Positions 22,973 through 41,874 of a stretch of DNA of 64,000 nt are shown here, one piece after another. The position numbers were made by a program, and so were the translations under genes. Each line of letters starts with the position of its first letter. Positions within the stretch are counted from its first letter, which is position 1. The notes under the pieces are model-generated. The model searched no databases. It saw nothing but the letters and a program-made list of their open reading frames with translations, and was not told the origin of the DNA. The stretch comes from Pseudooceanicola sp. HF7 (GTDB taxonomy: Bacteria; Pseudomonadota; Alphaproteobacteria; Rhodobacterales; Rhodobacteraceae), in assembly GCF_011806405.1 (NCBI RefSeq), contig NZ_JAATOW010000011.1, positions 1-64,000 of the forward strand, read 5' to 3'.

Positions 22973-23070
22973 GTTAACCACGGCAAATACCGACAAGAAT
23001 ACCGACGTGATACCGACGTCGTACCGACGCGATACAGACGTGGATTTCAGCCCCCATTTCCCTGTTAACC
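22973..23070 (+). repeat. Iteron-like element copy A (five TACCGAC-type heptamers)
   Basis: GTTAACC (22973), 8 bases, then TACCGAC at 22988, 23000, 23011 and 23022 and TACAGAC at 23033, with spacers of 5, 4, 4 and 4 bases. GTGG follows, then 20 bases and another GTTAACC (23064-23070). The same architecture occurs inverted at 41094-41192. Confidence 0.85.
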
Positions 23071-23145
23071 AAGGCCCCGGGGCTCGATTCGCACCCAAAG
23101 CGCCGCCCCGGACCCGCACGCAGCCGCAAGACCGCGTTAACCACA

Positions 23146-23178
23146 AGAAAACGCCGCGCCGGATTTCTCCGACGCGGC
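23146..23178 (-). terminator. Terminator of the xdh-ABC operon
   Basis: On the minus strand the stem GCCGCGTCGG/CCGGCGCGGC (one T-G pair) with a six-base loop is followed by GTTTTCTTG. It lies 26 bases past the BMP gene stop. Confidence 0.75.
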
Positions 23179-23203
23179 GCCCAGTCTTTCGTGACGGTCC
23201 GGC

Positions 23204-24301
23204 TTACTGCGGGATCTCGCCGTCCAGCCCTTCGACGTAGAAGTTCATGCCGGCCAGCGTGCCGTCATCGGCCACTTCACCCTCTGCCAGCCAGGGGGTG
23301 CCGTCCTGCTTGTTCAGCGGGCCGGTGAAGGGGTGGTATTCGCCTGCGGCGATCGCATCCTTCATCTCCAGCGCGGCGGCCTTCACGTCTTCCGGCACGA
23401 CCTCGGTGATCTCACCGATGCCGACCATGCCGGTGTTGATGCCTTCCCAGACCGAGTGGGATTCCCAAGTGCCATCCATGACCGCCTTCACGCGGGAGGT
23501 GTAGTAGGGCTCCCAGTTGTCGATGATGGAAGAGACACGGGGAGAGGGCGCATATTCCGCCATGTCGCCCGCCTGGCCAAAGCCGATCACGTCGCCCGCT
23601 GCCTGAGCGGCGGCCAAAGGTGCCGTGGAATCAGTGTGTTGCAGGATCACGTCCGCGCCCTGTTCGATCAGGGTCCGGGCCGCGTCCGCCTCTTTCGCCG
23701 GGTCCATCCAGGTGTAGAGCCAGATGACCTTGAACTCGACGTCGGGGTTCACCTTCTTGGCGTGGATATAGGCAGAGTTGATGCCGCGCACGACTTCCGG
23801 GATCGGCACGGAGGCGATGTAGCCGATCGTGTTGCTCTTGGTCATGGAGCCCGCGATGGTCCCCTGAACCGCGCGCCCCTCGTAGAAACGGGCGGAATAG
23901 GCGGCCATGTTCGGCGCGGTCTTGTAGCCGGTGGCATGTTCGAACTTCACGTCCGGGAACTTGCTTGCGACGTTCAGCGTGGGATCCATGTAGCCGAAGG
24001 AGGTGGAAAAGATGATATCCGCCCCGTTCAGCGCCATCTGGGTCATGGCACGTTCGGAATCCGGGCCCTCGGGCACGTTTTCCTGGTAGACCATCTCCAC
24101 CTTGTCGGCGCCGATCTCCTCGATCATCTTCAGCGCGCTCTCGTGGTGGTGCTGGGACCAGCCGCCATCGTTGATCGGGCCGACGTAGATGAAGCCCACC
24201 TTCGTCATGTCGTCCTGGGCCAGGGCCGCGCCGGTGGCCATGGCGGTCAGGCCAAGCGCCGTAGCGGCCCCGGCCAGGAAGGTTCTTTTCTTCATAAGCA
24301 T
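23204..24301 (-). CDS. BMP family ABC transporter substrate-binding protein
   Basis: A periplasmic receptor of the basic-membrane-protein (PnrA/Med) family, which binds purine nucleosides or nucleobases. 365 residues. A signal peptide (residues 1-29, ALA-Q cleavage, no lipobox Cys) is followed by VGFIYVGPINDGGW (near 34-47) and the sugar-binding-like fold. The ATG at 24301 was chosen for GGGGAG upstream. It is the last gene of a minus-strand operon with the transporter ATPase, two permeases and xdhABC, which points to a purine such as xanthine, hypoxanthine or a related compound. Confidence 0.88.
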   Translation of the reverse strand: MLMKKRTFLAGAATALGLTAMATGAALAQDDMTKVGFIYVGPINDGGWSQHHHESALKMIEEIGADKVEMVYQENVPEGPDSERAMTQMALNGADIIFSTSFGYMDPTLNVASKFPDVKFEHATGYKTAPNMAAYSARFYEGRAVQGTIAGSMTKSNTIGYIASVPIPEVVRGINSAYIHAKKVNPDVEFKVIWLYTWMDPAKEADAARTLIEQGADVILQHTDSTAPLAAAQAAGDVIGFGQAGDMAEYAPSPRVSSIIDNWEPYYTSRVKAVMDGTWESHSVWEGINTGMVGIGEITEVVPEDVKAAALEMKDAIAAGEYHPFTGPLNKQDGTPWLAEGEVADDGTLAGMNFYVEGLDGEIPQ

Positions 24302-24336
24302 TTGTGGTTGCTCCCCTTTTTTAAAGAATTCCTGCC

Positions 24337-25260
24337 CTATTGAGAGGCATGGAAAGAGCGGCCGAGCGAGGCTGGCGCCGCGCTGCGATCCGCAGACATG
24401 ATGACCAGCACGAGGATGGTGATCAGGTATGGCGACATTGAAAGATATTCGGCAGGCACCGCAATCCCCGCGGCCTGCAGGTTCAGCTGCAGCACGGTAA
24501 CGCCCCCGAACAGGTAGGCCCCCAGCAAGACGCGCCAGGGTTTCCAGCTGGCAAAGACCACCAGCGCCAGGGCGATCCAGCCCGCGCCGCCGGTCATGCC
24601 CTCGGTCCATTGCGGCACCCGAACAAGGCTGACATAGGCCCCGCCAAGACCCGCGCAGGCCCCGCCGAACAGGATTGCAAGAACGCGAATCCGAACGACC
24701 TTGTAGCCAAGCGCATGGGCTGCGGCATGGTTTTCCCCCACCGCGCGCAGGATCAGCCCGCCGCGAGTGAACTTCAGGAAGGCCCAGACTACGGCCACCA
24801 GGGCCAGGCCGAAGTAGACGACCAGGTCATGGCTGAACAGCACTGGTCCAAGCACGGGAATATCGGACAGCAGCGGGATATCCAGCTCCGGAGTGGGCGG
24901 CGGCTTGATCCCCACGTAGCCCTGTCCGATCAGCGACGACAGGCCCAGCCCGAAAAGCGTCAGCGCCAGCCCGCTTGCGACCTGGTTGGCCAGGGCAAAC
25001 TGGGTCAGCAGCGCAAACAGCAGAGACAGCCCCGCGCCCCCGGCCGCGGCGGCGATGAAGCCGATGGTCGGCGACCCGGTGGTCACGGCCGCGGCAAAGC
25101 CGCAGATGGCGCCGGTGATCATCATCCCCTCCACGCCAAGGTTAAGAACCCCCGCCTTCTCGACGATCAGCTCGCCCACGGCGGCGATCAGCACGGCCGT
25201 GGCCGCCACCATGAGAGAGGCCAGAAGAAGAACCGGATTGATCGCGGAAACATCCATCAC
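24337..25260 (-). CDS. ABC transporter permease (NupQ/YufQ-like)
   Basis: A 307-residue inner-membrane permease of the branched-chain-amino-acid/ribose permease family, of the kind paired with BMP receptors. About eight hydrophobic segments. The conserved LNLGVEGMMITGA lies near residues 36-48. It overlaps the preceding permease gene by four bases (ATGA-type), so the two are translationally coupled. It probably forms a heterodimeric channel with the other permease. Confidence 0.88.
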   Translation of the reverse strand: MMDVSAINPVLLLASLMVAATAVLIAAVGELIVEKAGVLNLGVEGMMITGAICGFAAAVTTGSPTIGFIAAAAGGAGLSLLFALLTQFALANQVASGLALTLFGLGLSSLIGQGYVGIKPPPTPELDIPLLSDIPVLGPVLFSHDLVVYFGLALVAVVWAFLKFTRGGLILRAVGENHAAAHALGYKVVRIRVLAILFGGACAGLGGAYVSLVRVPQWTEGMTGGAGWIALALVVFASWKPWRVLLGAYLFGGVTVLQLNLQAAGIAVPAEYLSMSPYLITILVLVIMSADRSAAPASLGRSFHASQ

Positions 25261-26339
25261 ACCGCCTCCCGCGCGACGAAGCGCACCCGGTAATTTGTAA
25301 GCATATCAACGGCCAGCAGGAAGAACAGCAGCATCCCCTGGAAGACCTGGATCGCGGCGCCCGGCAATTGCATCGTACTCTGCGCCGCTTCCCCGCCGAT
25401 GTAGGTCAGGGCCATCAGAAGCCCGGCCAGCACGATCCCGAAGGGATGCAGCCGGCCCAGGAAGGCCACGATGATCGCGGTGAACCCATAGCCCACGTTG
25501 AACCCGGTAGAGATCTGGCCCGAGGGGCCGGAAACCTCGAAAACCCCGGCAAGCCCGGCCAGCGCCCCGGCGGTGCCCATGCAGAACAGCACCAGCCGCG
25601 CCGGCTTGACGCCAGAGAACCGCGCGGCCCGCGGGGCCTCGCCGGTCAGGCGGATCTGGTAGCCCAGGATATGCCGGTTCATCATCACATAGGCCATGAT
25701 CGCGGCGATAAAGGCCGCCGCCACGCCCCAGTGCATCCCCGTATCGGCAATGATCTCTGCATTATGGGCCGATGCATATTGCTGCAGGTTGCGCGATCCG
25801 GGAAAGCCGAAGCCCTCCGGGTTCTTCATCAGCCCGAGCGCCATGGAGGCCAGGAACTGCTCGGCCACGTAGACCAGCATCAGGCTGACCAGGATCTCGT
25901 TTGTCCCGAACCGCACCTTCAGCAGGGCCGGGATCATCGCCCAGGCCCAGCCGCCAAGCGCGCCCGCGATGATCATGGCCGGGAAGATCCACCAGGCCTC
26001 GAGCGGGTAAAGCGCCAGGGCCACGCCGGCGCCGGTGATGGCGCCCATGATGTACTGCCCCTCGGCCCCGATGTTCCAGATCCCGGCCCGGAAGCCCAGG
26101 CTCAGACCAAGCGCGATCAGGATCAGCGGCCCGCCCTTCACCAGCAATTGCGGCCTGTAATAAAAGGAAAATTCCCCGAACAGCGGATCCCAGAAGATGG
26201 TCCTGATCGCGGCCACCGGATCCTTGCCCAGCAGCGCGAACAAAAGCCCGCCTGCCACCATTGTGATCAGCACCGCCAGCACCGGGGTGACATAACTCAG
26301 GGTCCGTGACGGCTGCGGCCGCTTCTCCAGCCTCAGCAT
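25257..26339 (-). CDS. ABC transporter permease (NupP/YufP-like)
   Basis: A 360-residue permease with about nine hydrophobic segments. The family segment WNIGAEGQYIMGA lies near residue 92, and GYGFTAIIVAFLGRLHP near 270. The start is the ATG at 26339; an upstream in-frame ATG at 26387 falls inside the dispersed repeat and is less likely. An 81-base gap with that repeat separates it from the ATPase gene, the only such break in the operon. Confidence 0.88.
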   Translation of the reverse strand: MLRLEKRPQPSRTLSYVTPVLAVLITMVAGGLLFALLGKDPVAAIRTIFWDPLFGEFSFYYRPQLLVKGGPLILIALGLSLGFRAGIWNIGAEGQYIMGAITGAGVALALYPLEAWWIFPAMIIAGALGGWAWAMIPALLKVRFGTNEILVSLMLVYVAEQFLASMALGLMKNPEGFGFPGSRNLQQYASAHNAEIIADTGMHWGVAAAFIAAIMAYVMMNRHILGYQIRLTGEAPRAARFSGVKPARLVLFCMGTAGALAGLAGVFEVSGPSGQISTGFNVGYGFTAIIVAFLGRLHPFGIVLAGLLMALTYIGGEAAQSTMQLPGAAIQVFQGMLLFFLLAVDMLTNYRVRFVAREAV

Positions 26340-26350
26340 TCCCGCGCCCC

Positions 26351-26383
26351 TTTCTTCTTGCCAAAAATACTCCCGCCGGAGGC
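26351..26383 (+). repeat. Dispersed intergenic repeat, copy 3
   Basis: It reads TTTCTTCTTGCC, then AAAAATACTCCC, then GCCGGAGGC. This is the fullest copy of the repeat also at 3361-3392 and (inverted) 14128-14149. It sits inside an operon, between the ATPase and permease genes. Confidence 0.6.
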
Positions 26384-26420
26384 GCATGTTCCAGTGGGCG
26401 ATCCCGCCCGGAATTGACGC

Positions 26421-27938
26421 TCAGACATGGGCCACCTCCATTCCATGGGCCCCGCCCATCATCAGCCCGATCTGCTCCATCGTCAGCCCCGTGGCCGGCA
26501 GGATCTCTGACAGCCGCCCCTCGTTGAGCGCGCCGAAATTGTCGGAGACCTCCATCAGCTCGTCCAGGTCCTGGCTGATCACCACCACCGCGGTGCCCCC
26601 CGCGGCCAGGTCCAGCAGGGCCTGGCGGATCGTGGCGGCGGCTGCGGCATCCACGCCCCAGGTGGGCTGGTTGACCACCAGCACTTCGGGCCGTTGCATC
26701 ACCTCGCGGCCAATGACGAACTTCTGCAGGTTGCCACCCGAAAGCGCGCGCGCCGCGGTTTCCGTTCCTGGCGTGCGCACGTCGAACCTCTCGATGATGC
26801 GCGCGGCAAAATCCCGTGCTTTCGACCACTTGAGGAACCCGTTGGCCATGAGCCCCTCGCGTTCCGCGCCAGTCAGAAGCGCGTTTTCCGTCAGGCTCAT
26901 GTCCGGCGCGGCGGCATGGCCCAGGCGCTCCTCGGGCGCCGTGAGCAGGCCCAGGCTGCGCCGCTGTCCGGGCCCCGCCGTGCCGATCTCGCGCCCGTCC
27001 AGAACCACCATGCCCGCCTTGCAGGTCAGCTCGCCCGAGAGGGCCGCCAGAAGCTCGTCCTGGCCGTTCCCGGCCACGCCTGCCAGGCCCAGCACCTCAC
27101 CGGCGCGGACCTCCAGCGTGATGTTCTTGAGCGACGTGCCGAACTGCCCCGGAGAGGCCACCGACAGGTCGTTCAGCGCCAGGCGCACCGCGCCGGGGGC
27201 CGCCGGGGTCCGTTCGGGGCGGTGCAGCTCCGATCCCACCATCATCTCAGCCATCTGCGCCGCAGTCACCTCGCGCGGGGTGCAGGTGCCGACCTTCCGG
27301 CCCAGGCGCAGGATCGTCGCCTCGTCGCAAAGCGAGCGGATTTCTTCAAGCTTGTGAGAGATATAGAGGATCGAGGTCCCCTCATCCTTCAGCTTGCGCA
27401 GCGTGGCAAACAGGATCTCCACCTCCTGCGGCGTTAGGACCGAGGTCGGCTCGTCCATGATCAGCAGCTTGGGATCCTGCAACAGGCAGCGCACGATTTC
27501 CACGCGCTGGCGTTCGCCCGCGCTCAGGTCGCCCACCAGTTTCCAGGGGTCCAGCGGCAGCCCGTATTGTTCCGAAACCGTGCGGATCCGCTCTGCCAGC
27601 TCATTGGTCTTGGGCGGTTCGGCCATGCCCAGGGCCACGTTTTCCGCCACGTTGAGCGCATCGAACAGGCTGAAGTGCTGGAACACCATCGCCACGCCGC
27701 GCGCGCGGGCCTCCTGGGGCTGGCCTGGCGCATAGGCGCTGCCGCCCAGGACCATCTCTCCCTGGTCGGGCTTCACCAGCCCGTAGATCATCTTGACCAG
27801 CGTGGATTTTCCCGCGCCGTTCTCGCCCAGCAGCGCGTGCACCTCGCCCGGCTGGATGTCGAAGGAGACGTCGTCATTGGCCACGACGCCCGGATAGGCC
27901 TTTGTCAGGCCCCTGATTGAAAGGAGTGGTCCCGTCAC
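26421..27938 (-). CDS. ABC transporter ATPase with two nucleotide-binding domains (NupO-like)
   Basis: A 505-residue tandem ATPase of the ribose/purine-nucleoside importer type. The first domain has Walker A GENGAGKST (near 37-45) and signature LSAGERQR (near 143). The second has a degenerate Walker A (GNGQDEL) and LSGGNLQK (near 400), as is usual in this family. It starts with GTG and overlaps the xdhC stop by four bases (GTGA), which ties the importer to xanthine dehydrogenase. Confidence 0.92.
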   Translation of the reverse strand: MTGPLLSIRGLTKAYPGVVANDDVSFDIQPGEVHALLGENGAGKSTLVKMIYGLVKPDQGEMVLGGSAYAPGQPQEARARGVAMVFQHFSLFDALNVAENVALGMAEPPKTNELAERIRTVSEQYGLPLDPWKLVGDLSAGERQRVEIVRCLLQDPKLLIMDEPTSVLTPQEVEILFATLRKLKDEGTSILYISHKLEEIRSLCDEATILRLGRKVGTCTPREVTAAQMAEMMVGSELHRPERTPAAPGAVRLALNDLSVASPGQFGTSLKNITLEVRAGEVLGLAGVAGNGQDELLAALSGELTCKAGMVVLDGREIGTAGPGQRRSLGLLTAPEERLGHAAAPDMSLTENALLTGAEREGLMANGFLKWSKARDFAARIIERFDVRTPGTETAARALSGGNLQKFVIGREVMQRPEVLVVNQPTWGVDAAAAATIRQALLDLAAGGTAVVVISQDLDELMEVSDNFGALNEGRLSEILPATGLTMEQIGLMMGGAHGMEVAHV

Positions 27939-28867
27939 GCTTTTCGTTCCCCAAGGGCGTCTTGCCGCGCCATCTGTCCAAGTATCTCAGCCGCGACGCC
28001 CACGGCAATCTCCTGCGGATGTTTCCCAAGGGCAGGATCGCCGATGGGACATTGGATGCTCGCAATACGAGCAGGATCATGGCCCATCTCCGCAAGCCGC
28101 CTGCGGAAGCGCACCCATTTGCTGGCAGAGCCGATCAGCCCGCAGCGTGCGAACCCCCGGCTGAGCAGCGCATCGCAAAGCGCAAGGTCCAGGCTGTGGC
28201 TATAGGTCAGGATCAGGTGCTCTGCGGTGACAGGCGCATGTGCCGCCAGCAGGGCAGGCTCTGCCGCGGGCAGGGCGGTCACCCCCTCGGGCAGGACCGG
28301 CGGAAAGCGGTCCTGCTGCGTATCGATCCAGGTGATCGCGAGCCCGGGCAGGGGGGCCAGGACCGCGGCAATCGCCCGGCCCACGTGGCCCGCGCCCCAG
28401 ATCCAGATCTCCCTTTCGGCCCGCAGGACCGGTTCCGCGACCCAACCGCCGCCCACCAGGATCCCCGGCAACTCGCCCGCGGCCCGCGCACGGGCCAGCA
28501 AGCGCTTGATGGCAAAGGGCATCTGGCCACCACCCGGCAGCGGGCGGGCGATCACCTGGCCCTCTGCCGCCGCCAGCCGCTCCGCATCCCAGGCCTCGTA
28601 CAGCAGGGTCACGGCCCCGCCGCAGCACTGGCCCAGGTCCGGGCCAAGCGCGCGTTTCTCCAGCAGGTCTGCATCCAGCGCGCGGGCGCGCCGGATCGCT
28701 TCATGTTCCAGCGTGCCGCCACCGATGGTGCCGACCAGGAAGTCCGGGCCGACGATCATCGCCGTCCCCGCCTCTCGCGGGACAGAGCCGAGGGTGTCGG
28801 TCACCAGCACGCGCACCACGCGCGGCGCGCGCTCAAGCGCGCGCTCTATGGCGCGGCGGTCAAACAC
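27935..28867 (-). CDS. xdhC: Xanthine dehydrogenase accessory protein XdhC
   Basis: Binds molybdenum cofactor, helps its sulfuration and delivers it to XdhB. 310 residues. The N-terminal XdhC/CoxI motif SVPREAGTAMIV lies near 28-39 and GTIGGGTLEHEA near 48-59. The C-terminal Rossmann part has WIWGAGHVGRA (near 157) and IGSASKWVRFRR (near 250). The GTG start at 28867 overlaps the xdhB stop by eight bases. The longer ORF upstream on this strand overlaps xdhB and is spurious. Confidence 0.9.
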   Translation of the reverse strand: MFDRRAIERALERAPRVVRVLVTDTLGSVPREAGTAMIVGPDFLVGTIGGGTLEHEAIRRARALDADLLEKRALGPDLGQCCGGAVTLLYEAWDAERLAAAEGQVIARPLPGGGQMPFAIKRLLARARAAGELPGILVGGGWVAEPVLRAEREIWIWGAGHVGRAIAAVLAPLPGLAITWIDTQQDRFPPVLPEGVTALPAAEPALLAAHAPVTAEHLILTYSHSLDLALCDALLSRGFARCGLIGSASKWVRFRRRLAEMGHDPARIASIQCPIGDPALGKHPQEIAVGVAAEILGQMARQDALGERKA

Positions 28868-31313
28868 CCCGCACCCGGTCGATCGCCGCCAGGACCCGCT
28901 CCGGCGTCGCCGGGGCATCAAGATCGGGGTAGCTCTCGCCATAGGCCGAGACTGCATCGGACAGCGCCAGCAGGGCGGAAATCCCCAGCATGAAGGGCGG
29001 CTCCCCCACGGCCTTGGAGCGATAGATCGTGGCAGCCGGGTTCGGCTCATCCCAGAGCGCGACGTTGAAGATCTTCGGCCGATCCGAGCAGGCCGGGATC
29101 TTGTAGGTCGAGGGCGCATGGGTCCGCAGCCGCCCCTTGTCGTCCCAGACCAGCTCTTCCGTGGTCAGCCAGCCGGCGCCCTGCACATAGGCGCCCTCCA
29201 CCTGGCCGATATCCAGCGCCGGGTTCAGGCTGTTGCCGGCATCATGCAGCATGTCCGCCCGCAGGATCCGGTATTCCCCGGTCAGCCGGTCCACGACCAC
29301 TTCCGTCAGGGCCGCGCCATGGGCGAAATAGAAGAAGGCCTTGCCCTGTCCCTTCATCCGATCCCAGCTCAGGTCCGGCGTCTTGTAATGGCCGGTGGCC
29401 GACAGGCTGACCTGGTTCTGGTAGGCAAGCTGCGCCGCCTCTGCAAAGCTCAGCCGGTTGGAGCCAGCCAGGACATCGCCCCCCTCAAAGATCACTTCCT
29501 CGGTGCGCACCTGGTGCAGCTCTGCCACCACGCCGGCGATCCGGTCCCGCAGCGTGTCGCAGGCCGCCTTCACCGCCATCCCGTTCAGATCCGCCCCGGA
29601 AGAGGCTGCCGTGGCCGAAGTATTGGGCACCTTGGCGGTATCGGTCGCGGTGATCTTCACCATTTCCAGCGGGATGCCGAACCGGCTGGCGGCCACCTGC
29701 GCGACCTTCTGGAACAGGCCCTGGCCCATCTCCGTCCCGCCGTGGTTCAGGTGAACGGAGCCATCCTGGTAGACATGCACCAGCGCCCCCGCCTGGTTGA
29801 GGTGCGAGAGCGTGAAGGAAATCCCGAACTTCACCGGAGAGAAGCCAAGCCCGCGCTTCAAAACGGAATTCGTCGCATTCCATTTCGCGATCTCGGCCTT
29901 GCGGGCGGCGTAGTCGCTGCTCTCCAGCAGCCGCTCGGTCAGACGGCCAAGGCAGAAATCCACCACCGGCATCCCGTAAGGCGTGGTCTGCACACCCGGC
30001 GGGGCTTTCACGGGCTCGCCTTCTACCGCGACGGCGCCGCGGCTTTGCGGCTCATCCTTCACCTTGCCGGACATACTCCGGGGGGGCGTCGAAGACGCGG
30101 GGGCAGAGCCCCCTTCGCCGCTCTCCGTCTCTGAACCGGCCTTCTGGAAATCGCCCTTCTCGAAATCGGCGTAGTAGTTCACGCGTCGCAGCTCGACAGG
30201 GTCCATCCCCAGCTCATGGGCCAGGTGATCCACCACCCGCTCGATCCCGACCACCCCCTGGGGGCCGCCGAAGCCGCGATAGGCCGTGGCCGAGCACATG
30301 TTGGTACGCAGCCGGTGGCTTTCGATGCGGATGTGCTCCATCAGGTAAGCGTTGTCCGAATGCAGCATGGCGCGATCCGCCACCGCCAGGCTCAGGTCCT
30401 GGGTCCAGCCACAGCGGGTGTATTGCTTGAAATCGATGCCGTGGATGCGCCCGGTTTCGTCGTAGCCGACCTTGTAATCGATGCGGAAATCATGGCGCTT
30501 GCCGGTGATCTGCATGTCGTCGTCGCGGTCATAGCGCATCTTGCAGGGGCGCCCGGTGACGCGGGCCATCACCGCGCAGGCCACGGCCAGCGGGTTGCCC
30601 TGGCTTTCCTTACCGCCGAAGCCGCCGCCCATGCGCCGGCTTTCCACCCGCACGGCGTTCATCGGCAGGCCAAGCGCCTCGGCCACCTTGTGCTGGATCT
30701 CCGTCGGGTGCTGGGTCGAGGCATTGACCAGCATGTCGCCGCCCTCCTGCGGCGAGGCAAGAGAGGCCTGGCCTTCCAGGTAGAAATGCTCCTGCCCGCC
30801 CATCTCGATCCGGCCCGACAGGGTCATCGGGGCGGCGTTGATGGCCTTTGCCGCATCGCCCTTGGTCCAGACCAGCGGCGGATGTTCGATGTAGCTTTCA
30901 GCCTCCAAAGCCTCGTCAACGGTCAGGATCGGGGTCTCTTCGGCCACCTCGATCACCGCCTGGCGGGCCGCGAAACGGGCCGCGTGGTGGCTGGTGGCCG
31001 CGACGACAAAGATCGGCTGGCCAACGAAATTCAGGCTGCCGGTAGAGAGCAGCGGTTCGTCGTGCACCGGGGCAGAGGCCGTGTCATTGGCGAAGGGCAG
31101 GTCCTCTGCCACCATGACCCGGACCACGCCGGGCGCGGCCTTGACGGCGGAAAGATCCAGGCTTTTCAATGTGCCACGCGCAATGGGCGAGGTGCCGAAG
31201 GCCAGGTGCAGGCAGTTCGCCGGGGTCGGGATGTCGTCGAGGTAGCGCGCCTCTCCCGTCACGTGAAGGGGAGCTGCGTCATGGGGCAGGGGCTTGCGCA
31301 CGGTTTCGTTCAT
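28860..31313 (-). CDS. xdhB: Xanthine dehydrogenase molybdopterin-binding subunit
   Basis: The large subunit that hydroxylates hypoxanthine and xanthine to urate. 817 residues. The molybdopterin and active-site motifs are GGGFGGKES (Glu near 235), SATAYRGFGGPQG (catalytic Arg near 345), HGGTEMGQG (near 530) and VGEPP with the catalytic Glu near 770. It is about 40 residues longer than the well-known R. capsulatus protein. The extra length is a Ser/Gly/Pro-rich segment at about residues 393-440, whose DNA looks like an intergenic repeat. It overlaps xdhA by four bases. Confidence 0.94.
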   Translation of the reverse strand: MNETVRKPLPHDAAPLHVTGEARYLDDIPTPANCLHLAFGTSPIARGTLKSLDLSAVKAAPGVVRVMVAEDLPFANDTASAPVHDEPLLSTGSLNFVGQPIFVVAATSHHAARFAARQAVIEVAEETPILTVDEALEAESYIEHPPLVWTKGDAAKAINAAPMTLSGRIEMGGQEHFYLEGQASLASPQEGGDMLVNASTQHPTEIQHKVAEALGLPMNAVRVESRRMGGGFGGKESQGNPLAVACAVMARVTGRPCKMRYDRDDDMQITGKRHDFRIDYKVGYDETGRIHGIDFKQYTRCGWTQDLSLAVADRAMLHSDNAYLMEHIRIESHRLRTNMCSATAYRGFGGPQGVVGIERVVDHLAHELGMDPVELRRVNYYADFEKGDFQKAGSETESGEGGSAPASSTPPRSMSGKVKDEPQSRGAVAVEGEPVKAPPGVQTTPYGMPVVDFCLGRLTERLLESSDYAARKAEIAKWNATNSVLKRGLGFSPVKFGISFTLSHLNQAGALVHVYQDGSVHLNHGGTEMGQGLFQKVAQVAASRFGIPLEMVKITATDTAKVPNTSATAASSGADLNGMAVKAACDTLRDRIAGVVAELHQVRTEEVIFEGGDVLAGSNRLSFAEAAQLAYQNQVSLSATGHYKTPDLSWDRMKGQGKAFFYFAHGAALTEVVVDRLTGEYRILRADMLHDAGNSLNPALDIGQVEGAYVQGAGWLTTEELVWDDKGRLRTHAPSTYKIPACSDRPKIFNVALWDEPNPAATIYRSKAVGEPPFMLGISALLALSDAVSAYGESYPDLDAPATPERVLAAIDRVRGV
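30062..30113. repeat. Intergenic-type repeat embedded in xdhB
   Basis: It contains CCTTGCCGGACATACTCC (compare CTTGCCAAAAATACTCCC at 26357), CGTC-GAA-GACG (30087-30097) and GGGGGC-AGA-GCCCCC (30099-30113). The reading frame stays open through it and encodes low-complexity residues about 401-418. Confidence 0.5.
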
Positions 31314-32677: not shown

Positions 32678-32831
32678 GTAGCTATCATCCACCGCGTTAC
32701 CCTAGTGCCATCCATGCCCCCCCGATGCGGTAGAAGGGAGGCGGCAAATCAGTCCGGCCCATCAAAGGGAACAGGTCTGCTGCTTGCAAGAAAAATTACG
32801 GCGAGTTTTTAATCTGACCTCGCGAAACTGC

Positions 32832-33638: not shown

Positions 33639-33647
33639 TGAGCTAAC
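33630..33647. promoter_or_regulatory. Candidate operator at the ArsR-SRPBCC start codon
   Basis: GTTAGCCATTGAGCTAAC has perfect GTTAGC/GCTAAC arms around six bases. It covers the start codon of the ArsR gene (33636-33638) and fits a dimeric winged-helix regulator. Confidence 0.5.
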
Positions 33648-33728
33648 GATGCCTCAAGCCGAAGTTTGCCGCAAGAAAAACTTAGCCCTGCGGGTAACAA
33701 AACGCGATTTCAGGGATTTACGCCATGC

Positions 33729-33744
33729 TTATCCAATGGGCTAA
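33729..33744. promoter_or_regulatory. Second candidate operator upstream of ArsR-SRPBCC gene
   Basis: TTATCCAATGGGCTAA resembles the operator at 33630-33647 (shared GCTAA and CCA/TTG core). It lies 57 bases before dnaE, between the two divergent genes. Confidence 0.4.
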
Positions 33745-33800
33745 CTAAATCACGCCCTCGGGATCTTGCTGCTTCCGGGGTCCGGGAATAGGCTCCGTTC

Positions 33801-36800
33801 ATGAGCACGCCCCCCCGATTCATCCACCTCCGCACCCATACCGAGTATTCACTTCTTGAAGGCGCCCTGCGGCTGAAGAAGCTGCCCGGCCTTTGCGCCG
33901 CGGCGGGGATGCCAGCGGTGGCTGTCACCGACACGAACAACATGTTCGCTGCGCTTGAATTTTCCGTTGCGGCTGCGGGCGCAGGTATCCAGCCGATCAT
34001 CGGCTGCCAGGTCGACCTGCAATGGCACCGCCCGGAACCGGGGGAAAAGCCCAAGCCGCCCGCGCCCATCGTCCTGCTGGCGCAAAGCGAGCGTGGCTAC
34101 GAGCACCTGATGGAGCTCAACACCTGCCTCTATGTCGCCCATCGTGGCGAACTGCCCCATGTCACTCTGGAAGAGCTTGAGGCCCATACCGAAGGGCTGA
34201 TCTGCCTGACCGGCGGTGCGCTTGGCCCGGTGGGGCAGCTTCTGCAGACCGGTCACAGGCCAGAGGCGCAGGCGCTGATGCAGCGCCTCTCGGCGGCCTT
34301 CCCGGATCGGCTTTACGTCGAATTGCAGCGCCATCCCGAAGACGACGGCCTGCCGGAAGCCGAAAAGCTGACCGAGCGCGGCTTCGTGGAAATGGCCTAT
34401 GCGATGGATCTGCCACTGGTGGCGACCAACGATGTCTATTTCCCGAAACCGGAGATGTACGAGGCCCACGACGCGCTGATCTGCATTGCGGACGGCGCTT
34501 ACGTGGACCAGCAGCAGCCGCGCCGCCGCCTGACGGCCCAGCATTACTTCAAGTCCCCGCAGGAGATGGCGACGCTGTTTGCCGACCTGCCGGAAGCCAT
34601 CGAAAACACGGTGGAGATCGCGCAGCGCTGTGCCTTCATGGCCTATCGCCGGGATCCGATCCTGCCGAAGTTCGCCGATGACGAGGTGGCAGAGCTGCGT
34701 CGCATGGCCAACGAGGGGCTGAAGGCACGGCTGGACGTGATCCCCCATGCGGTCAGCGTGGAAGATTACCAGAAACGGCTCGATTTCGAGCTGGGCATCA
34801 TCGAGGGGATGGGCTTCCCCGGCTACTTCCTGATCGTTGCCGACTTCATCCAGTGGGCCAAGGACCACGATATCCCGGTGGGGCCGGGGCGGGGCTCTGG
34901 TGCGGGCTCCCTGGTCGCCTATGCGCTGACCATCACCGACCTTGACCCGCTGCGCTATTCGCTGCTGTTCGAACGGTTCCTGAACCCGGAACGGGTCTCC
35001 ATGCCCGACTTCGACATCGACTTCTGCATGGATCGCCGCGAAGAGGTGATCCGCTACGTGCAGGAGAAATACGGGCGCGACAAGGTGGGGCAGATCATCA
35101 CCTTCGGTGCCCTGCTGTCCAAGGCCGCCGTGCGCGATATCGGGCGCGTCCTGCAGATGCCCTATGGCCAGGTGGACCGGCTGTCCAAGCTGATCCCGGT
35201 GGAGGGCGTGAAGCCCGTCTCCATCGAGAAGGCGCTGAAGGATGAACCCCGCCTTGCCGAAGAGGCCCGCAACGAAGAGGTTGTGGACCGGCTGCTGAAA
35301 TACGGCATGCAGGTGGAGGGGCTGTTGCGCAACGCCTCGACCCACGCGGCCGGCGTGGTGATCGGGGATCGGCCGCTCGACCGGCTGGTGCCGCTGTATC
35401 AGGATCCGCGGTCCGACATGCCCGCGACGCAGTTCAACATGAAATGGGTCGAGCAGGCCGGCCTGGTAAAGTTCGACTTCCTGGGTCTTAAGACCCTGAC
35501 GGTGATCCAGAACGCGATCGAGCAAATCCACGCCGGCGGGCGCGATCTGCATGTCGCCGCCGATGGCACCCAGCTTTATGAGCCGGCCCCCGGGGCGGAG
35601 AACCAGATCAACCTCATCCCGCTGGATGACGAAAGGACCTACAGGCTTTACGCCCGCGCCAAGACCGTCGCCGTGTTCCAGGTGGAATCCACCGGCATGA
35701 TGGACGCGCTGAAGCAGATGAAGCCGACCTGTATCGAGGACATCGTGGCCCTCGTGGCGCTTTACCGCCCCGGCCCTATGGAGAACATCCCGGTCTATTG
35801 CGAGGTCAAGAACGGCCAGCGCGAGATCACCTCGGTCCACGAAAGCATCGACCACATCCTGGCAGAGACCCAGGGCATCATCGTCTACCAGGAACAGGTG
35901 ATGCAGATTGCCCAGGTCATGGCGGGCTACTCGCTTGGCGGCGCTGACCTTTTGCGCCGGGCCATGGGTAAGAAGATCAAGGAGGCGATGGACGCCGAAC
36001 GCCCGAAATTCGAGAAGGGCGCGGCGGCCAACGGGGTCGACAAGAAGAAGGCCTCTGAGGTCTTCGACCTTCTGGAAAAATTCGCCAACTACGGCTTCAA
36101 CAAGTCCCACGCGGCGGCCTATGCGGTGGTTTCGTACCAGACCGCCTGGCTGAAGGCGAACCACCCGGTGGAGTTCATGGCCGGTGTCATGAACTGCGAT
36201 ATCCACCTGACGGACAAGCTGGGCATCTACTTCCAGGAAGTGAAGAAGGCGCTTGAGCTGCCCTATATCCCGCCCTGCGTGAACCGCTCTGACGCGAAGT
36301 TCAAGGTGGTGGACGGGGCCCTGGTCTATGCGCTTGGCGCGCTCAAGAACGTGGGCCTGGACGCGATGCGCCTGATCGAGGAGGGGCGCGACGGCAAGCC
36401 CTTTGCCACGCTCTACGATGTCGCGCGCAGGGTCGAGCTGAAGAAGGTCGGCAAGCGCCCGCTGGAGATGCTGGCGCGCGCCGGGGCCTTTGACGAGCTG
36501 GATCGCAACCGCCGCCGGGTCTTTGACAGCCTGGATGCGCTGGTGGCCTATTCGGCCGCGATCTGGGAACAGAAGTCCTCCAACCAGGTGAGCCTGTTCG
36601 GTGAGGCGGGCGATGACCTGCCAGAGCCGCGCCTGAGCCCGGTGAACGACTGGCTGCCCGCGGAACGGCTGGCAGAGGAATTCAAGGCCATCGGGTTCTA
36701 CCTGTCGGGCCACCCGCTGGACGATTACATGGGCGCGCTGCGGCGCAAGCAGGTCAAGACGCTGGACGAGGTCACCAAGCTGGCCGAGGGCGGCGCGTTG

Positions 36801-37307
36801 GTGGCCAAGCTGGCCGGTATCGTCACCGGCAAGCAGGAACGCAAATCGGCGCGCGGCAACCGCTTTGCCTTTGCGCAACTCTCTGATCCCACAGGGGCTT
36901 ACGAGGTCACGATCTTTTCCGACACGCTCGACCAATGCCGGGATTTCCTGGAGAACGGCGAAAAGGTCGTGCTGACGGTCGAGGCCACCATGGAAAGCGA
37001 CCAGCTACGCCTGCTGGCCCGGGGCATCGTCCCGATGGACGGGGTTGTGGCGGATGCCGGGGCCATCGGGCTGAAGATCTTCATGTCGGAGACAGAGGGC
37101 GTGGCGGCCGTTCAGGACGTTCTTCTGCGAGCCTCGGAAACCGTGCGGGGCGTGCAGAAGGGGCCGATCCACTTCTGCCTGGTGAACAGCACGCTGCCCG
37201 GTGGCGGCGAGGTGGAGATCAAGGCGAACGAAGGCTACCCGGTCACGCCCGAGATCAAGGGCGCGCTGAAAAGCCTACCTGGGATCCTGGCGGTCGAGGA
37301 AATCTGA
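33801..37307 (+). CDS. dnaE: DNA polymerase III alpha subunit
   Basis: The replicative polymerase catalytic subunit, DnaE1 type by length (1168 residues). The N-terminal PHP domain starts FIHLRTHTEYS. The catalytic aspartates are Asp403 and Asp405 in PDFDIDF and Asp559 in VKFDFLGL. The GPGRGSGAGSL segment (near 362) and the helix-hairpin-helix and OB-fold regions (about 980-1070) are all in place. The C-terminal tau-binding region ends the chain. The start ATG agrees with the conserved PHP beginning; GGCTCCGTTC upstream is a weak ribosome-binding site. Confidence 0.97.
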   Translation: MSTPPRFIHLRTHTEYSLLEGALRLKKLPGLCAAAGMPAVAVTDTNNMFAALEFSVAAAGAGIQPIIGCQVDLQWHRPEPGEKPKPPAPIVLLAQSERGYEHLMELNTCLYVAHRGELPHVTLEELEAHTEGLICLTGGALGPVGQLLQTGHRPEAQALMQRLSAAFPDRLYVELQRHPEDDGLPEAEKLTERGFVEMAYAMDLPLVATNDVYFPKPEMYEAHDALICIADGAYVDQQQPRRRLTAQHYFKSPQEMATLFADLPEAIENTVEIAQRCAFMAYRRDPILPKFADDEVAELRRMANEGLKARLDVIPHAVSVEDYQKRLDFELGIIEGMGFPGYFLIVADFIQWAKDHDIPVGPGRGSGAGSLVAYALTITDLDPLRYSLLFERFLNPERVSMPDFDIDFCMDRREEVIRYVQEKYGRDKVGQIITFGALLSKAAVRDIGRVLQMPYGQVDRLSKLIPVEGVKPVSIEKALKDEPRLAEEARNEEVVDRLLKYGMQVEGLLRNASTHAAGVVIGDRPLDRLVPLYQDPRSDMPATQFNMKWVEQAGLVKFDFLGLKTLTVIQNAIEQIHAGGRDLHVAADGTQLYEPAPGAENQINLIPLDDERTYRLYARAKTVAVFQVESTGMMDALKQMKPTCIEDIVALVALYRPGPMENIPVYCEVKNGQREITSVHESIDHILAETQGIIVYQEQVMQIAQVMAGYSLGGADLLRRAMGKKIKEAMDAERPKFEKGAAANGVDKKKASEVFDLLEKFANYGFNKSHAAAYAVVSYQTAWLKANHPVEFMAGVMNCDIHLTDKLGIYFQEVKKALELPYIPPCVNRSDAKFKVVDGALVYALGALKNVGLDAMRLIEEGRDGKPFATLYDVARRVELKKVGKRPLEMLARAGAFDELDRNRRRVFDSLDALVAYSAAIWEQKSSNQVSLFGEAGDDLPEPRLSPVNDWLPAERLAEEFKAIGFYLSGHPLDDYMGALRRKQVKTLDEVTKLAEGGALVAKLAGIVTGKQERKSARGNRFAFAQLSDPTGAYEVTIFSDTLDQCRDFLENGEKVVLTVEATMESDQLRLLARGIVPMDGVVADAGAIGLKIFMSETEGVAAVQDVLLRASETVRGVQKGPIHFCLVNSTLPGGGEVEIKANEGYPVTPEIKGALKSLPGILAVEEI

Positions 37308-37310
37308 GGA

Positions 37311-37505
37311 TCAGTAATGCGGGGGGCGTTCGTCGCCCAGGTAGACGGCATTGCCGGATTCCGCCTCGCGCGCGGCCTCGCGTTCCATCAGAAGCTGCAC
37401 CCGGCGGGTCAGCATCATGATCTCGCCCTGCTGACGGGCAACCGTTTCAGAGATCTCGTCGACGGTGCGCGTGAGATGGGCGATCTTTTCTTCCAGCTCC
37501 AGCAT
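37311..37505 (-). CDS. slyX: SlyX family protein
   Basis: A 64-residue coiled-coil protein of unknown function. The heptad-like start [19 protein letters not shown] and the C-terminal PPHY are typical of SlyX. It is convergent with dnaE, with three bases between the stops. The ATG at 37505 was chosen because the family begins here; the much longer ORF upstream is spurious. Confidence 0.88.
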
Positions 37506-37731
37506 GGGGAACCTCGTTCTGGCAGGGCTTCGGGTGGGGCGGCGGGATCCGCCCCGGTGCGTGCGGGCGTCACATATCACATGCAACGGGGATGTCTGCA
37601 GTTTCTGTCGCTGGGGCGCAGGATCGCGGGCCGGGCAGGGGGCGGGCCGAGGGCAAGACGCGGGCTGCGCTTGCCCCCCTCGGCCCCATGGGCTATGCCC
37701 CGGGCGCAATCCATATGGCAAGGATGAAGCG

Positions 37732-39216
37732 ATGGCCAAGGTGAAGAAAACGCCGCGCCCCAAGGCGGAGACCCCCAAGGGCTTCCGTGACTACTTTGGT
37801 GCGGAAGTGACGGAACGGACGGAGATGCTTGCGAAGATCGCCGCCGTCTACCATCGCTACGGTTTCGATGCCCTGGAAAGCTCTGCCGTGGAAACGGTGG
37901 AAGCGCTTGGCAAGTTCCTGCCCGATGTGGACCGCCCCAACGCCGGCGTCTTCGGCTGGCAGGAGGGCGAGGAAGAGGGCAAGGGCGACTGGCTGGCCCT
38001 GCGCTATGACCTGACCGCGCCGCTGGCGCGTGTCTACGCCCAGCACCGCAACGATCTGCCCACCCCCTACCGGCGCTATGCCATGGGGCCGGTCTGGCGC
38101 AATGAAAAGCCCGGTCCGGGGCGGTTCCGCCAGTTTTATCAATGCGATGCGGACACGGTCGGTGCCGCTTCGGTCGCGGCGGATGCAGAGATCTGCGCGA
38201 TGCTGTCGGACTGCCTGGAAGAGGTCGGGATCCCGCGCGGGGATTACATCATCCGGGTGAACAACCGGAAGGTCCTGAACGGCGTGCTGGAAGCCATGGG
38301 CGTGACGGATGAGGCCCAGCAGGCCGATGTCCTGCGCACCATCGACAAGTTCGACAAGGTCGGGGAAGAGGGCGTGCGCCAGCTTCTGGGCAAGGGGCGG
38401 CTGGATGCATCTGGCGCCTATATCGACGGTGTCGGGCTGGAAGAGACCCAGGCAGAGCCGGTTCTGGCCTTCCTGACCTCCAAGGGGTCGACGGCGGCGG
38501 ATACGCTGGCCAACCTGCGGGCGGCTGTCGGCAGTTCCGCCGTGGGCGCCGAGGGCGTGGATGAGCTTGAGCTGATCGCCAGCCTGCTGGAGGCCCAGGG
38601 CTATGGCCCCGACCGGATCGAGATCGACCCCAGCGTCGTGCGCGGCCTTGGCTATTACACCGGGCCGGTCTTCGAGGCCGAGCTGACCTTTGAAATCCTT
38701 GATGAAAAGGGCCGCAAGCGCCAGTTCGGCTCGGTTTCCGGCGGCGGGCGCTACGACGGGCTGGTCAAGCGCTTCACCGGGCAGGAAGTGCCCGCGACGG
38801 GTGTCTCCATCGGCGTTGACCGCCTGCTGGCGGCGCTGCGTGCCAAGGGCCGCATCGGCGGCAAGGCCGAGGGCCCCGTGGTGGTCACGGTCATGGATCG
38901 CGACCGCATGGCCGATTACCAGGGCATCGTGGCCGAACTGCGCGAAGCTGGTATCCGGGCAGAGGTCTACCTGGGCAACCCCAAGAACTTCGGTAACCAG
39001 TTGAAATACGCCGATAAACGCAACTCTCCCGTCGCGGTCATCGAAGGCGCGGAAGAGAAGGCGCGCGGCGTGGTTCAGGTCAAGGACCTGGTGCTGGGCG
39101 CCAAGATCGCCGAGAACGCGACGCTGGAAGAATGGAAAGACCGCCCCTCGCAATACGAGGTGCCGCGCGGTGAGCTTGTGGCGAAGATCCGGGAAATCCT
39201 TGCGGGGCAGGACTGA
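37732..39216 (+). CDS. hisS: Histidyl-tRNA synthetase
   Basis: Class II synthetase that charges tRNA-His. 494 residues, with motif 1 near KGFRDYFG and motif 2 as [19 protein letters not shown] (about 121-139). The His-specific motif is RGLGYYTG (near 303) and motif 3 is [13 protein letters not shown] (near 358). The C-terminal anticodon domain runs from about residue 380. The ATG at 37732 follows AAGGATG. It shares one base with hisZ (TGATGG), and hisS-hisZ-hisG form one operon. Confidence 0.96.
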
Positions 39217-40325
39217 TGGTCTATCGCAGCCCCGACAAGGCGCAGGTGAAAGCCTGTGCCGCCGCCCTGCGCACGCGGTTCGAATCCGCCGGCGCCCTGC
39301 CGGTGGAAGCGCCGGTGCTGGTCTCTTCCTCTGCGTTGCTGGACCTTTACGGAGAGGACCTGCGCGCGCGGGCCTATACCACCTCTGACACCCTGCGGGG
39401 CGAGCAGATGCTGCGCCCCGACTTCACCGTGCCGGTGGTGCAGATGCACATGGCCGAGGGCGCGGAACCGGCCCGCTATACCTATTCCGGCGAGGTTTTC
39501 CGCCGCCAGGAAGAGGATGAGGCGCGGGCCAATGAATACCTTCAGGTCGGCTTCGAGATCTTCGATGGCAGCGATCCCGCCGCTGCCGATGCAGAGGTCT
39601 TTGCCCGCATCCAGACCGCGATTTCTCCGTTGAACCTCAAGGCGATGACCGGGGATATCGGAATCCTGATGGCGGCGGTCGACGGGCTGCGGACCTCTGA
39701 CGTGCGCAAGGCCGCGCTGCGGCGGCATATCTGGCGTCCGAACCGCTTCAAGATCCTGCTGGATCGCTACGCGGGGCGCACGCCGGTGTCGCCTGCGCGG
39801 GTGGCCCTGCTGAAGGCAGAGGATCCCTTTGCGGGCGCTGCCCCTGAGATCGGCCTGCGGTCACGCCATGAGGTGGCCGCGCGCCTTGAGGTGCTGCGCC
39901 AGGACCTGGCCGAACCCGCGATCCCGGCCCGGGACGTGGACCTGATCGAGGCCATCCTGGATGTTCGCGCCACCCTGCCTAACGCCTTGGAACAATTGCG
40001 CGATATCGCCGTGGACCTGCCCGCGATCTCTGACGCGGTAGAGACCCTTGGCGCGCGGATCGAGGCCCTGGAGGGGCGCCGCGTGAACACCGCCGCGGTG
40101 GAGTTCGAGGCCGCCTACGGGCGCACGCACATGGAATATTACGACGGTTTCGTCTTCGGCTTCCTGGTGGAGCGCCGCCCGGACCTGCCGCCGTTGGCCA
40201 CCGGCGGACGTTATGACGCGCTGACACGGGTGCTGGGCGCGGCGCAGGGGCGGCCCGAGGGCATCCCGGCGGTGGGCGGGGTGATCCGCCCCGGAATGGT
40301 CGTGGAACTGGGAGGCTGGGCATGA
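39216..40325 (+). CDS. hisZ: ATP phosphoribosyltransferase regulatory subunit
   Basis: A HisRS-like, catalytically inactive paralogue required by short HisG for the first step of histidine synthesis. 369 residues. It keeps the class II fold (MLRPDFTVPVVQMHM near 62, RYTYSGEVFRRQEED near 87, TGGRYDAL near 330) but not the HisRS histidine motif. It overlaps hisS by one base and hisG by four, so the three are coupled. Confidence 0.93.
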   Translation: MVYRSPDKAQVKACAAALRTRFESAGALPVEAPVLVSSSALLDLYGEDLRARAYTTSDTLRGEQMLRPDFTVPVVQMHMAEGAEPARYTYSGEVFRRQEEDEARANEYLQVGFEIFDGSDPAAADAEVFARIQTAISPLNLKAMTGDIGILMAAVDGLRTSDVRKAALRRHIWRPNRFKILLDRYAGRTPVSPARVALLKAEDPFAGAAPEIGLRSRHEVAARLEVLRQDLAEPAIPARDVDLIEAILDVRATLPNALEQLRDIAVDLPAISDAVETLGARIEALEGRRVNTAAVEFEAAYGRTHMEYYDGFVFGFLVERRPDLPPLATGGRYDALTRVLGAAQGRPEGIPAVGGVIRPGMVVELGGWA

Positions 40326-41017
40326 GCGTGAAGCTGGGTGTGCCCTCCAAGGGCCGGTTGATGGAGAAGACTTTTGACTGGTTCGGCCAGCGGGGCGTGA
40401 CCCTGGGCCGGGCCGGGTCCGACCGGGAGTATGCCGGGAAAGTCGAGGGAATCGAAGGGGTTGAGCTGGTGCTGCTGAGCGCGGGCGAGATCCCCAGGGA
40501 GTTGAACGCAGGCCGGATCCACCTAGGCGTGACAGGCACCGACCTGGTGCGCGAGAAGCTGGGCCAATGGGAACAGCGGGTCGAGGAACTGGCAGAGCTG
40601 GGCTTTGGCCATGCCGACCTGATCCTGGCCGTCCCCGCCTTCTGGGTGGACGTGGAAAGCCTGGATGACCTGGACGCGGCCGCGGCGGCGTTCCGGGCCC
40701 GGCACGGGTTCCGGATGCGGATCGCGACGAAGTATCACCGGCTGGTGCGCGAGTACCTGAAGGAAAAAGATGTCGCGGATTATCAACTGGTTGACAGCCA
40801 GGGGGCTACCGAGGGCACGGTGAAGAACGAGACGGCAGAGGCCGTGGCGGACATCACCTCCACCGGAGAGACCCTGCGCGCCAACCACCTGAAGATCCTG
40901 CCGGACGGCACGATCCTGAAGAGCCAGGCGACGCTGTTCCGGTCGCGCTCTGCGCCGCTGTCGGACGAGGATCGGCTGGCGCTGGCCGCGCTGATCCGCC
41001 AGTTGGGCCTGGATTAA
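40322..41017 (+). CDS. hisG: ATP phosphoribosyltransferase, short form
   Basis: Catalyses ATP + PRPP to phosphoribosyl-ATP, the first committed step of histidine synthesis. 231 residues: the short form, which lacks the C-terminal regulatory domain and relies on HisZ, encoded next to it. Recognisable parts: GVPSKGRL (near 5-12), LSAGEIPREL (near 55), the PRPP loop DSQGATEGTVKNETAEAVADI (near 158-178). It ends the hisSZG operon. Confidence 0.95.
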   Translation: MSVKLGVPSKGRLMEKTFDWFGQRGVTLGRAGSDREYAGKVEGIEGVELVLLSAGEIPRELNAGRIHLGVTGTDLVREKLGQWEQRVEELAELGFGHADLILAVPAFWVDVESLDDLDAAAAAFRARHGFRMRIATKYHRLVREYLKEKDVADYQLVDSQGATEGTVKNETAEAVADITSTGETLRANHLKILPDGTILKSQATLFRSRSAPLSDEDRLALAALIRQLGLD

Positions 41018-41093
41018 CCCCCCTTGCCATAGGTTTACCGGGGCGTGCGTGCCTGTCGGTGCGCCCCGGCGCCCGACTCGGGGTCATGTCCCT

Positions 41094-41192
41094 GGTTAAC
41101 GGGGCAAATCCCGGCAAAACCCCACGTCTGTATTACGTCGGTATCGCGTCGGTATTACGTCGGTGCCCATGTCGGTATCTGGCCGGGTTAAC
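41094..41192 (-). repeat. Iteron-like element copy B (inverted)
   Basis: The minus strand reads GTTAACC (41192-41186), 8 bases, TACCGAC (41177), CACCGAC (41165), TACCGAC (41154 and 41143), TACAGAC (41132), with spacers 5, 4, 4 and 4. GTGG, 21 bases and GTTAACC (41100-41094) follow. It matches copy A at 22973-23070 in architecture. Another GTTAACC lies at 41212-41218 (plus strand). Confidence 0.85.
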
Positions 41193-41254
41193 GGGGCGTG
41201 CGGAGAGATGCGTTAACCTTTGGGTGACGGGACAACCTGCGGTCTGCCGGGCGC

Positions 41255-41662: not shown

Positions 41663-41874
41663 GGGCGGCCTCCTGTGGCTGCCCAAGTCAACCGGAGCTT
41701 GTGCGCCCCTGTCAATCTTGCCTGTGCCCGCAAGGGGCGCTGTGGGGGATTTCCCGGCGCAGGGCCGCTGGGGTGCCTCTGGCATGGTCGCAGGCCCCGG
41801 CGACAGGCGCGGGAGGCGCAGCCGACAACGGCGCTGGCCCCCTCGATGGGGGCAGGGGCGTCACCCCGGGTAGC

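Follow-up and report, generated by a model that had tools for sequence, protein, structure and literature searches.

The stretch analysed here (hereafter the window) comprises 64,000 nucleotides of Pseudooceanicola sp. HF7 (contig NZ_JAATOW010000011.1, positions 1 to 64,000) and carries two iteron-like elements, A and B, in which five heptamers related to TACCGAC form an array flanked by GTTAACC motifs (Table 1). A preliminary description of this DNA had given both elements a strict layout, and re-reading the coordinates confirmed it in every part: GTTAACC and 8 bases lead into five heptamers with spacers of 5-4-4-4 bases, followed by GTGG, 20 bases in A or 21 in B, and a second GTTAACC. The extra GTTAACC sites that it listed at 23136 and 41212 are present, and both elements lie, as it stated, in non-coding gaps, each flanked by convergent predicted genes. 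All six occurrences of GTTAACC in the window stand at A and B (chance mean 1.53; at least six in 3 of 100 shuffles), and 200 sequences simulated from the window under a first-order Markov model contained no case of three phased units. The two elements face in opposite directions, and the local GC skew flips accordingly. That A and B form a significant pair, however, did not hold up, as they are only two of at least 73 distinct places in the source genome that were recovered from exact phased pairs of heptamers. With up to two mismatches, TACCGAC-N4-TACCGAC matches this genome 301 times, compared with 52 for a reversed control. We describe here the anatomy, placement, inheritance and orientation of this class of array, and weigh what it may be for.

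Table 1. Features of elements A and B and their neighbours, in window coordinates
Feature	Position	Strand	Basis or remark
Element A (composite class), whole extent	22973..23142	+	read from sequence
GTTAACC, 5' flank motif of A	22973..22979	+	TTAAC at phased position 14 upstream of array
Array A: TACCGAC x4 and TACAGAC	22988..23039	+	starts 22988, 23000, 23011, 23022, 23033
GTTAACC, 3' flank motif of A	23064..23070	+	sequence read and phased-motif statistics
CGATTCG (fits YGAKTCG), phased 3' motif of A	23085..23091	+	GANTC start at offset 46 past last heptamer
Third GTTAACC of A	23136..23142	+	TTAACC at offset 97-98 in 5/22 arrays read in source genome
Element B (composite class), whole extent	41074..41192	-	read from sequence
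GTTAACC, 5' flank motif of B	41186..41192	-	read from sequence
Array B: TACCGAC, CACCGAC, TACCGAC, TACCGAC, TACAGAC	41126..41177	-	starts 41177, 41165, 41154, 41143, 41132
GTTAACC, 3' flank motif of B	41094..41100	-	read from sequence
CGAGTCG (fits YGAKTCG), phased 3' motif of B	41074..41080	-	offset 46, as in A
Additional GTTAACC upstream of B, in the opposite orientation to it	41212..41218	+	read from sequence
Gene left of A, 86 amino acids, without Pfam match, convergent with gene right of A	22484..22744	+	gene prediction
Gene right of A: Bmp/PnrA-like ABC substrate-binding protein	23204..24301	-	PF02608
Gene left of B: HisG	40322..41017	+	PF01634
Open reading frame right of B, without Pfam match	41255..41785	-	gene caller puts start at 41662

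Repeat unit, phasing and the composite class

The unit is 11 bp long and reads (T/C)ACCGAC-GYNA. Across 101 arrays from the named genomes the middle unit has, in percent, T95 A99 C100 C99 G100 A100 C100 G84 T/C N A88. The spacers had previously been treated as neutral, yet only their middle two positions are nearly free; the first base, G, and the last, A, are mostly kept. In the same arrays the first unit starts with C in 63% of cases, and the last unit is looser, with A as its fourth base in 10% and C as its last base in 78%, so that the array has unlike ends. Unit numbers, counted in 154 arrays, are three in 67, four in 58, five in 28 and seven in one, though the arrays of P. spongiae can alternatively be counted as often holding two clean units after a degenerate one.

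Spacing between units is strict. In a sample of 1.44 Mb from P. spongiae and from G337, a carrier outside the genus (0.8 Mb contiguous and 0.64 Mb picked around arrays), TACCGAC pairs within 60 bp fell 54 times at 11 bp, 14 times at 22, once at 23 and once at 34, which places 68 of 70 at 11 or 22; none of 200 permuted heptamers gave more than one pair at 11. This spacing, together with the retention or decay of arrays by lineage described below, upholds the earlier suggestion of helical phasing and of selection on a protein-binding array. At two sets of similar loci (L138/L144 and L114/L163) the arrays contain different numbers of units but keep the 11-bp register, which points to lengthening or shortening in phase.

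A and B further belong to a composite class. A phased TTAAC stands on at least one side of 54 of the 154 arrays and on both sides of 27, its positions having been set after the histogram was seen; its distances from the array peak at about 14, 26 and 38 upstream and at about 15, 26 and 37 downstream. The longer form, GTTAACC, we take to be a putative CtrA half-site. A GANTC lies about 34 or 46 positions downstream in 39 of the 54 arrays with a phased TTAAC, compared with 4 of the 100 without, and the consensus YGAKTCG fits 32 of these 43 phased GANTC sites as against 5.3% of 3658 background GANTC. In PMC7987155, YGAKTCG/K is discussed as an extended GANTC motif for GcrA activation of CcrM-methylated promoters. 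A search of 60 relatives for GTTAACC-N2-20-CGATTCG found, within the genus, nine matches in the source genome, three in G014, two in P. antarcticus and one in P. spongiae; G013 and G019 had a single match apiece, neither with an array visible nearby; outside the genus, six genomes had one or two matches each. The composite arrays hold both motif types in phase, here joined to an array and often outside promoters, and these putative sites suggest a coupling with the CtrA/GcrA/CcrM cell-cycle circuit. The preliminary description had missed the YGAKTCG motif, as well as the strand orientation of the arrays and the fact that TTAAC accompanies only 54 of 154 of them.

Distribution, placement and inheritance

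A scan of one genome per species returned at least 108 matching stretches, and among the 80 matches listed all were Rhodobacterales by record title. Of 394 genomes of the family, nearly all from different genera, 30 had a match with at most one mismatch, 20 had five or more (up to 280) and 364 had none; the reversed control matched in 2 of the 394. Within the genus, 4 of 22 genomes are carriers, namely the source genome, P. antarcticus, P. spongiae and G014. A search of the genome and its relatives had been proposed as the check on A and B; the heptamers recur with conserved spacing. Density is about one array per 40 kb in the measured part of P. spongiae. A regular spacing of arrays was considered and rejected (coefficient of variation of the gaps 0.84, compared with 0.98 for random placement; 9% of random sets are as low).

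The iteron-like layout raises the idea that these are iterons of a plasmid or phage initiator that became dispersed in the chromosome, which we find hardly credible. A search of plasmid and phage collections, run with no positive control and open to a filter effect, brought up no convincing match. Among viral contigs of IMG/VR, 38 stretches match, but only L225 and L237 are Rhodobacterales-like by GC content and sequence; the other 36 look unrelated on both counts, with repeats such as TACCGACCAAG, and are taken as convergent. The loci in this set (L214-L251) are mostly low-GC viral contigs, and some of their phased repeats, apparently unrelated and again typified by TACCGACCAAG, lie inside predicted genes.

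Against genes predicted with a simple codon-based caller, 120 of 131 array places fall outside coding sequence, where 86% of the DNA codes. When gaps of 100-2000 bp were classified, with the source genome excluded, arrays occupied 32 of the 113 convergent gaps, 42 of the 364 tandem ones and 11 of the 227 divergent ones (p=3e-9), which makes 85 array-bearing gaps in all. The first arrays read in the source genome are all intergenic (24/24; 4 convergent, 17 tandem, 3 divergent). Arrays show no preferred orientation relative to neighbouring genes: among 194 arrays from five sets, the surrounding genes lie mainly on the same strand in 98 cases and on the opposite strand in 96. The ten genes examined next to sites that species have in common show no unifying function (two redoxins, LysR, RuvB, fructosamine kinase, RF3, a Hint protein, a pterin-binding enzyme and two without Pfam match), and a Pfam scan of 14 immediate array neighbours found no par genes.

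This placement bears on two further explanations. In PhoB/OmpR-type boxes a 7-bp direct repeat recurs every 11 bp, the 7+4 layout of PhoB-type winged helices, and the arrays could on this account be operators of an OmpR/PhoB-type response regulator and together constitute its regulon. The shared 7+4 layout speaks for such operators, as does the resemblance of the phased TTAAC and YGAKTCG motifs to CtrA and GcrA sites. The arrays, however, avoid divergent gaps and favour convergent ones, often in the absence of a promoter; their orientation follows skew and is unrelated to the strand of the surrounding genes, and the ten genes beside shared sites lack a common theme. Placement thus argues against a promoter regulon, and we consider this explanation quite improbable. 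The preference for convergent gaps would instead suit an RNA-level element near gene ends, whether a terminator, an antiterminator or a site on mRNA for a protein, but the helical spacing, the indifference to the direction of neighbouring genes and the lack of any Rfam match in the window make this very improbable.

The gap upstream of arfB, read in 22 genomes of the genus, illustrates how the arrays are inherited. It holds arrays of 3-5 units in the four carriers of the genus, a broken array in G009, whose gap otherwise closely resembles that of P. antarcticus, and fainter traces, seen by eye, in G002, G005 and G018; no array trace was recognisable in the gap of the other 14. When the sequences of P. 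antarcticus, G009 and G002 are aligned, they differ by substitutions and lost units, with no clean excision. Just downstream of arfB, the source genome has a further short stretch resembling arfB that contains an internal TAG (G000:C3:50495-50584). Genome-wide, at up to three mismatches, degenerate arrays number 12 in G018 and 5 in G009, both non-carriers, compared with 0-2 per genome in the control; G005 and G006 (2 each) and G002 and G010 (1 each) do not exceed the control, and carriers have 58 to 233 matches. Between species, a shared gene lies on the same side of the array in 16 of 16 pairs, at 11 positions, and at shared positions the heptamers persist while the flanks diverge. Some sites are common to several species, and sites decay in sisters that lack the system. 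On the other hand, the array between dnaA and dnaN in G337 has the opposite direction relative to dnaN from those of the source genome and P. spongiae. Array positions have thus been inherited in part and replaced in part.

Arrays also differ by species in what precedes them. A unit of the form (T/C)ACCG(TT/CC/TC)C precedes 25 of 31 arrays in P. spongiae, including the one upstream of arfB, as well as 4 of 107 arrays of the named set, with none in the source genome (0/65), P. antarcticus (0/21), G014 (0/8) or G337 (0/26). Likewise, G(T/C)GCGNN(G/C)CG precedes 34 of 65 source-genome arrays and 2 of 107 in the named set, and none in P. antarcticus, P. spongiae, G014 or G337. Judged from these motifs, the species dialects would fit sites that track a changing binder, or copying within genomes.

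Copying is the essence of the strongest competing explanation, in which the arrays are a non-autonomous mobile repeat, similar to repetitive extragenic palindromes (REP) or miniature inverted-repeat transposable elements (MITEs), inserted into intergenic DNA; a single-strand transposition enzyme that targets the lagging-strand template at forks would give the strand bias described below. Patchy carriage in dozens of copies, that strand bias, the species dialects (25/31 versus 0/65 for the P. spongiae unit in P. spongiae and the source genome), the lack of sharing between species at most positions and an imperfect 21-nt inverted pair (76%) that closely frames array A are all compatible with such a repeat. 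However, of four elements searched for inverted repeats only A is framed in this way, and B, L015 and L184 are not; unit number varies in 11-bp steps; heptamers persist at shared positions where flanks differ; in G009 and G002 the site has changed by substitution and by losing units, not by clean excision; and the dialect extends to the shared arfB site. We therefore regard a mobile repeat as unlikely, though still deserving serious consideration. By eye, a GC-rich palindromic REP-like repeat (GGGGCATCGAGCCCC..TTTCGTGGGGGCA..GCCCCC) was also seen near several source-genome arrays (window positions 22785-22832 and loci L005, L006, L012 and L027).

Orientation along the chromosome

Local GC skew is the best predictor of the strand on which an array lies. 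Over the five sets, 179 of the 194 arrays have TACCGAC on the C-rich strand, and where the skew exceeds 0.03 the count is 159 versus 4; in the source genome, where 65 distinct arrays were taken from 70 loci for the orientation and dialect counts, the figure is 63 of 65, 24 of these being also within the 194. The complement, GTCGGTA, accordingly reads along the G-rich strand, which is by convention the leading strand. An artefact of composition was considered as the source of this bias and rejected, as isolated heptamers show little of it: they lie on the C-rich strand in 74 of 135 cases (36/58, 16/25, 6/7 and 16/45 in four sets), compared with 441 of 486 heptamers within arrays (26/30, 79/83, 96/98 and 240/275).

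The preliminary description had proposed plotting the copies against origin and terminus, and here the outcome is divided: the strand follows GC skew, but agreement over whole replichores is imperfect. Counting the arrays listed, and with stretch limits chosen after inspection, P. spongiae has 22 '-' and 4 '+' arrays below 1.0 Mb and 39 '+' and 11 '-' between 1.0 and 3.1 Mb; over these first 3.1 Mb the best two-point split fits 61 of 76 listed arrays, where 300 shuffles reach at most 55. With the origin placed at dnaA (3.05 Mb) and the terminus opposite, the strict set of P. spongiae gives 18/8 versus 7/19 (p=0.005). On the same footing, the 46 arrays listed for G337 comprise 26 of 26 on '+' in 0.70-2.95 Mb and 15 '-' and 5 '+' elsewhere. 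In its first 0.84 Mb, the '+' arrays among '-' ones sit in reversed or flat skew, as expected if inverted segments had carried their arrays along.

The gap between dnaA and dnaN itself holds an array of seven units in the source genome (the longest of the 154) and of three units each in P. spongiae and G337 (L372, L366, L388), those of the two Pseudooceanicola being composites. The array in G337 is opposite to the other two relative to dnaN, but lies on the strand of its stretch. As a universal origin site this array was rejected: of 29 genomes with a dnaN match, only these three have it. In G017, G009, P. antarcticus and G002, extra distant dnaN-like genes of about 30-33% identity occur beside the main dnaN. 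A local switch in skew at the arrays was likewise rejected and is not used here (clear in P. spongiae, with p=0.0004 for evenly chosen arrays and p=0.001 for the minority set, but absent from G337, p=1, and from the named 8-kb loci, p=0.8). In P. spongiae (L169-L188, L312-L322, L325) the skew is stronger 5' of arrays (-0.087 compared with -0.029 beyond 1 kb), with the step about 1-2 kb downstream of the arrays; G337 lacks this asymmetry.

A putative chromosomal docking site

Based on these data, we propose that A and B are docking sites of a putative protein in replication-coupled chromosome organisation, a reading to which we give an even chance of being right. Each site would comprise usually three to five direct 11-bp units on one face of the helix, to which a putative sequence-specific protein would bind, one monomer per turn and head to tail, most likely as a short polar oligomer; direct asymmetric heptamers, one per turn, and unlike ends are what such an oligomer on one DNA face would need. 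Dispersed over intergenic DNA, avoiding gaps of the divergent promoter type and following the compositional strand in their orientation, these sites could act as reference marks for segregation, folding or fork-associated traffic, coupled to replication. About a third of them add phased TTAAC and YGAKTCG, which may tie them to the CtrA/GcrA/CcrM circuit. The orientation argues for a replication-linked task, and the pattern of loss and decay for a dispensable function. More tentatively, and with less expectation of being correct in every part, we envisage a previously undescribed system of chromosome organisation in which a protein would polymerise along iteron arrays that are oriented with replication and set a few tens of kilobases apart. 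It would be timed by CcrM methylation and CtrA, and would have been repeatedly lost in Rhodobacterales, its sites then decaying genome-wide.

We acknowledge several observations that weigh against the docking-site proposal. If whole arrays arose de novo, an estimated 69-83% would come to lie on the C-rich strand through background skew alone, so part of the strand bias may be background. GC skew stands in for replication direction throughout, and the stretches in P. spongiae and G337 carry the post hoc limits noted above. Beyond 3.1 Mb, the arrays listed for P. spongiae are divided into 7 '-' and 6 '+', and G337 has an additional '-' array at 760,852 inside its '+' stretch, although the skew there matches its strand; dnaN of G337 lies inside that same stretch, and the origin of this genome was not located. 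Agreement in orientation at contig level in the source genome is non-significant (32 of 53 same-contig pairs, p=0.08). A TTAAC cluster at 31 upstream (7 arrays) is out of step with the others. Among 21 P. antarcticus arrays sampled, only 5 have a flanking gene in common with any of the 63 sampled from the source genome, and copies within one genome are more alike than copies elsewhere, which copying could equally produce. Finally, no binding protein was found, AP2 being the sole family looked for: plants bind TACCGAC (the dehydration-responsive element, DRE) through AP2 proteins, but this candidate was rejected, with a match in 0 of 20 carriers and one weak match below cut-off among 20 non-carriers.

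Compared with known systems, the arrays combine familiar features in an unusual way. FtsK-orienting polar sequences (KOPS) and architecture-imparting sequences are single octamers, many per genome, general in their hosts, oriented along replichores and G-rich on the leading strand. The arrays share with them the chromosome-wide distribution, the G-rich leading strand and the orientation (by GC skew, with an imperfect whole-replichore fit), but are phased, intergenic and confined to few carrier genera, and the bias sits in arrays and not in single motifs. ParR/parC-type centromeres such as R1 parC have 11-bp iterons and are thus likewise sets of direct, helically phased 11-bp units; here, however, tens of copies are dispersed over the chromosome, and par genes are missing from the 14 neighbours scanned. 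REP/BIME (bacterial interspersed mosaic element) repeats, palindromes linked to RAYT transposases, are similarly dispersed between genes, whereas the present arrays are direct, phased and variable in unit number. The TAACTGA direct repeats of Beggiatoaceae, of which 169 sets occur in one genome, resemble them in being heptameric, patchy and without a known binder, but the heptamer is another one, and the account of them consulted in part makes no mention there of replication orientation (MacGregor 2015, PMC4679880). For the arrays themselves, the open-access literature searched yielded no description and Rfam no match in the window, in keeping with the earlier view that the layout is undescribed.

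Known oriented chromosomal marks are mostly short single motifs, and these arrays represent a rarer and larger kind of mark. Should the GcrA/CcrM-like and CtrA-like motifs in phase with them prove to be genuine binding sites, they would link such marks with the cell cycle of Alphaproteobacteria. Some species carry the arrays, whereas close sisters have lost them or keep only decaying ones. This natural on/off contrast should allow the protein to be found from gene content, and would provide a direct test of whether oriented sites serve to organise or segregate a chromosome or to set its timing.

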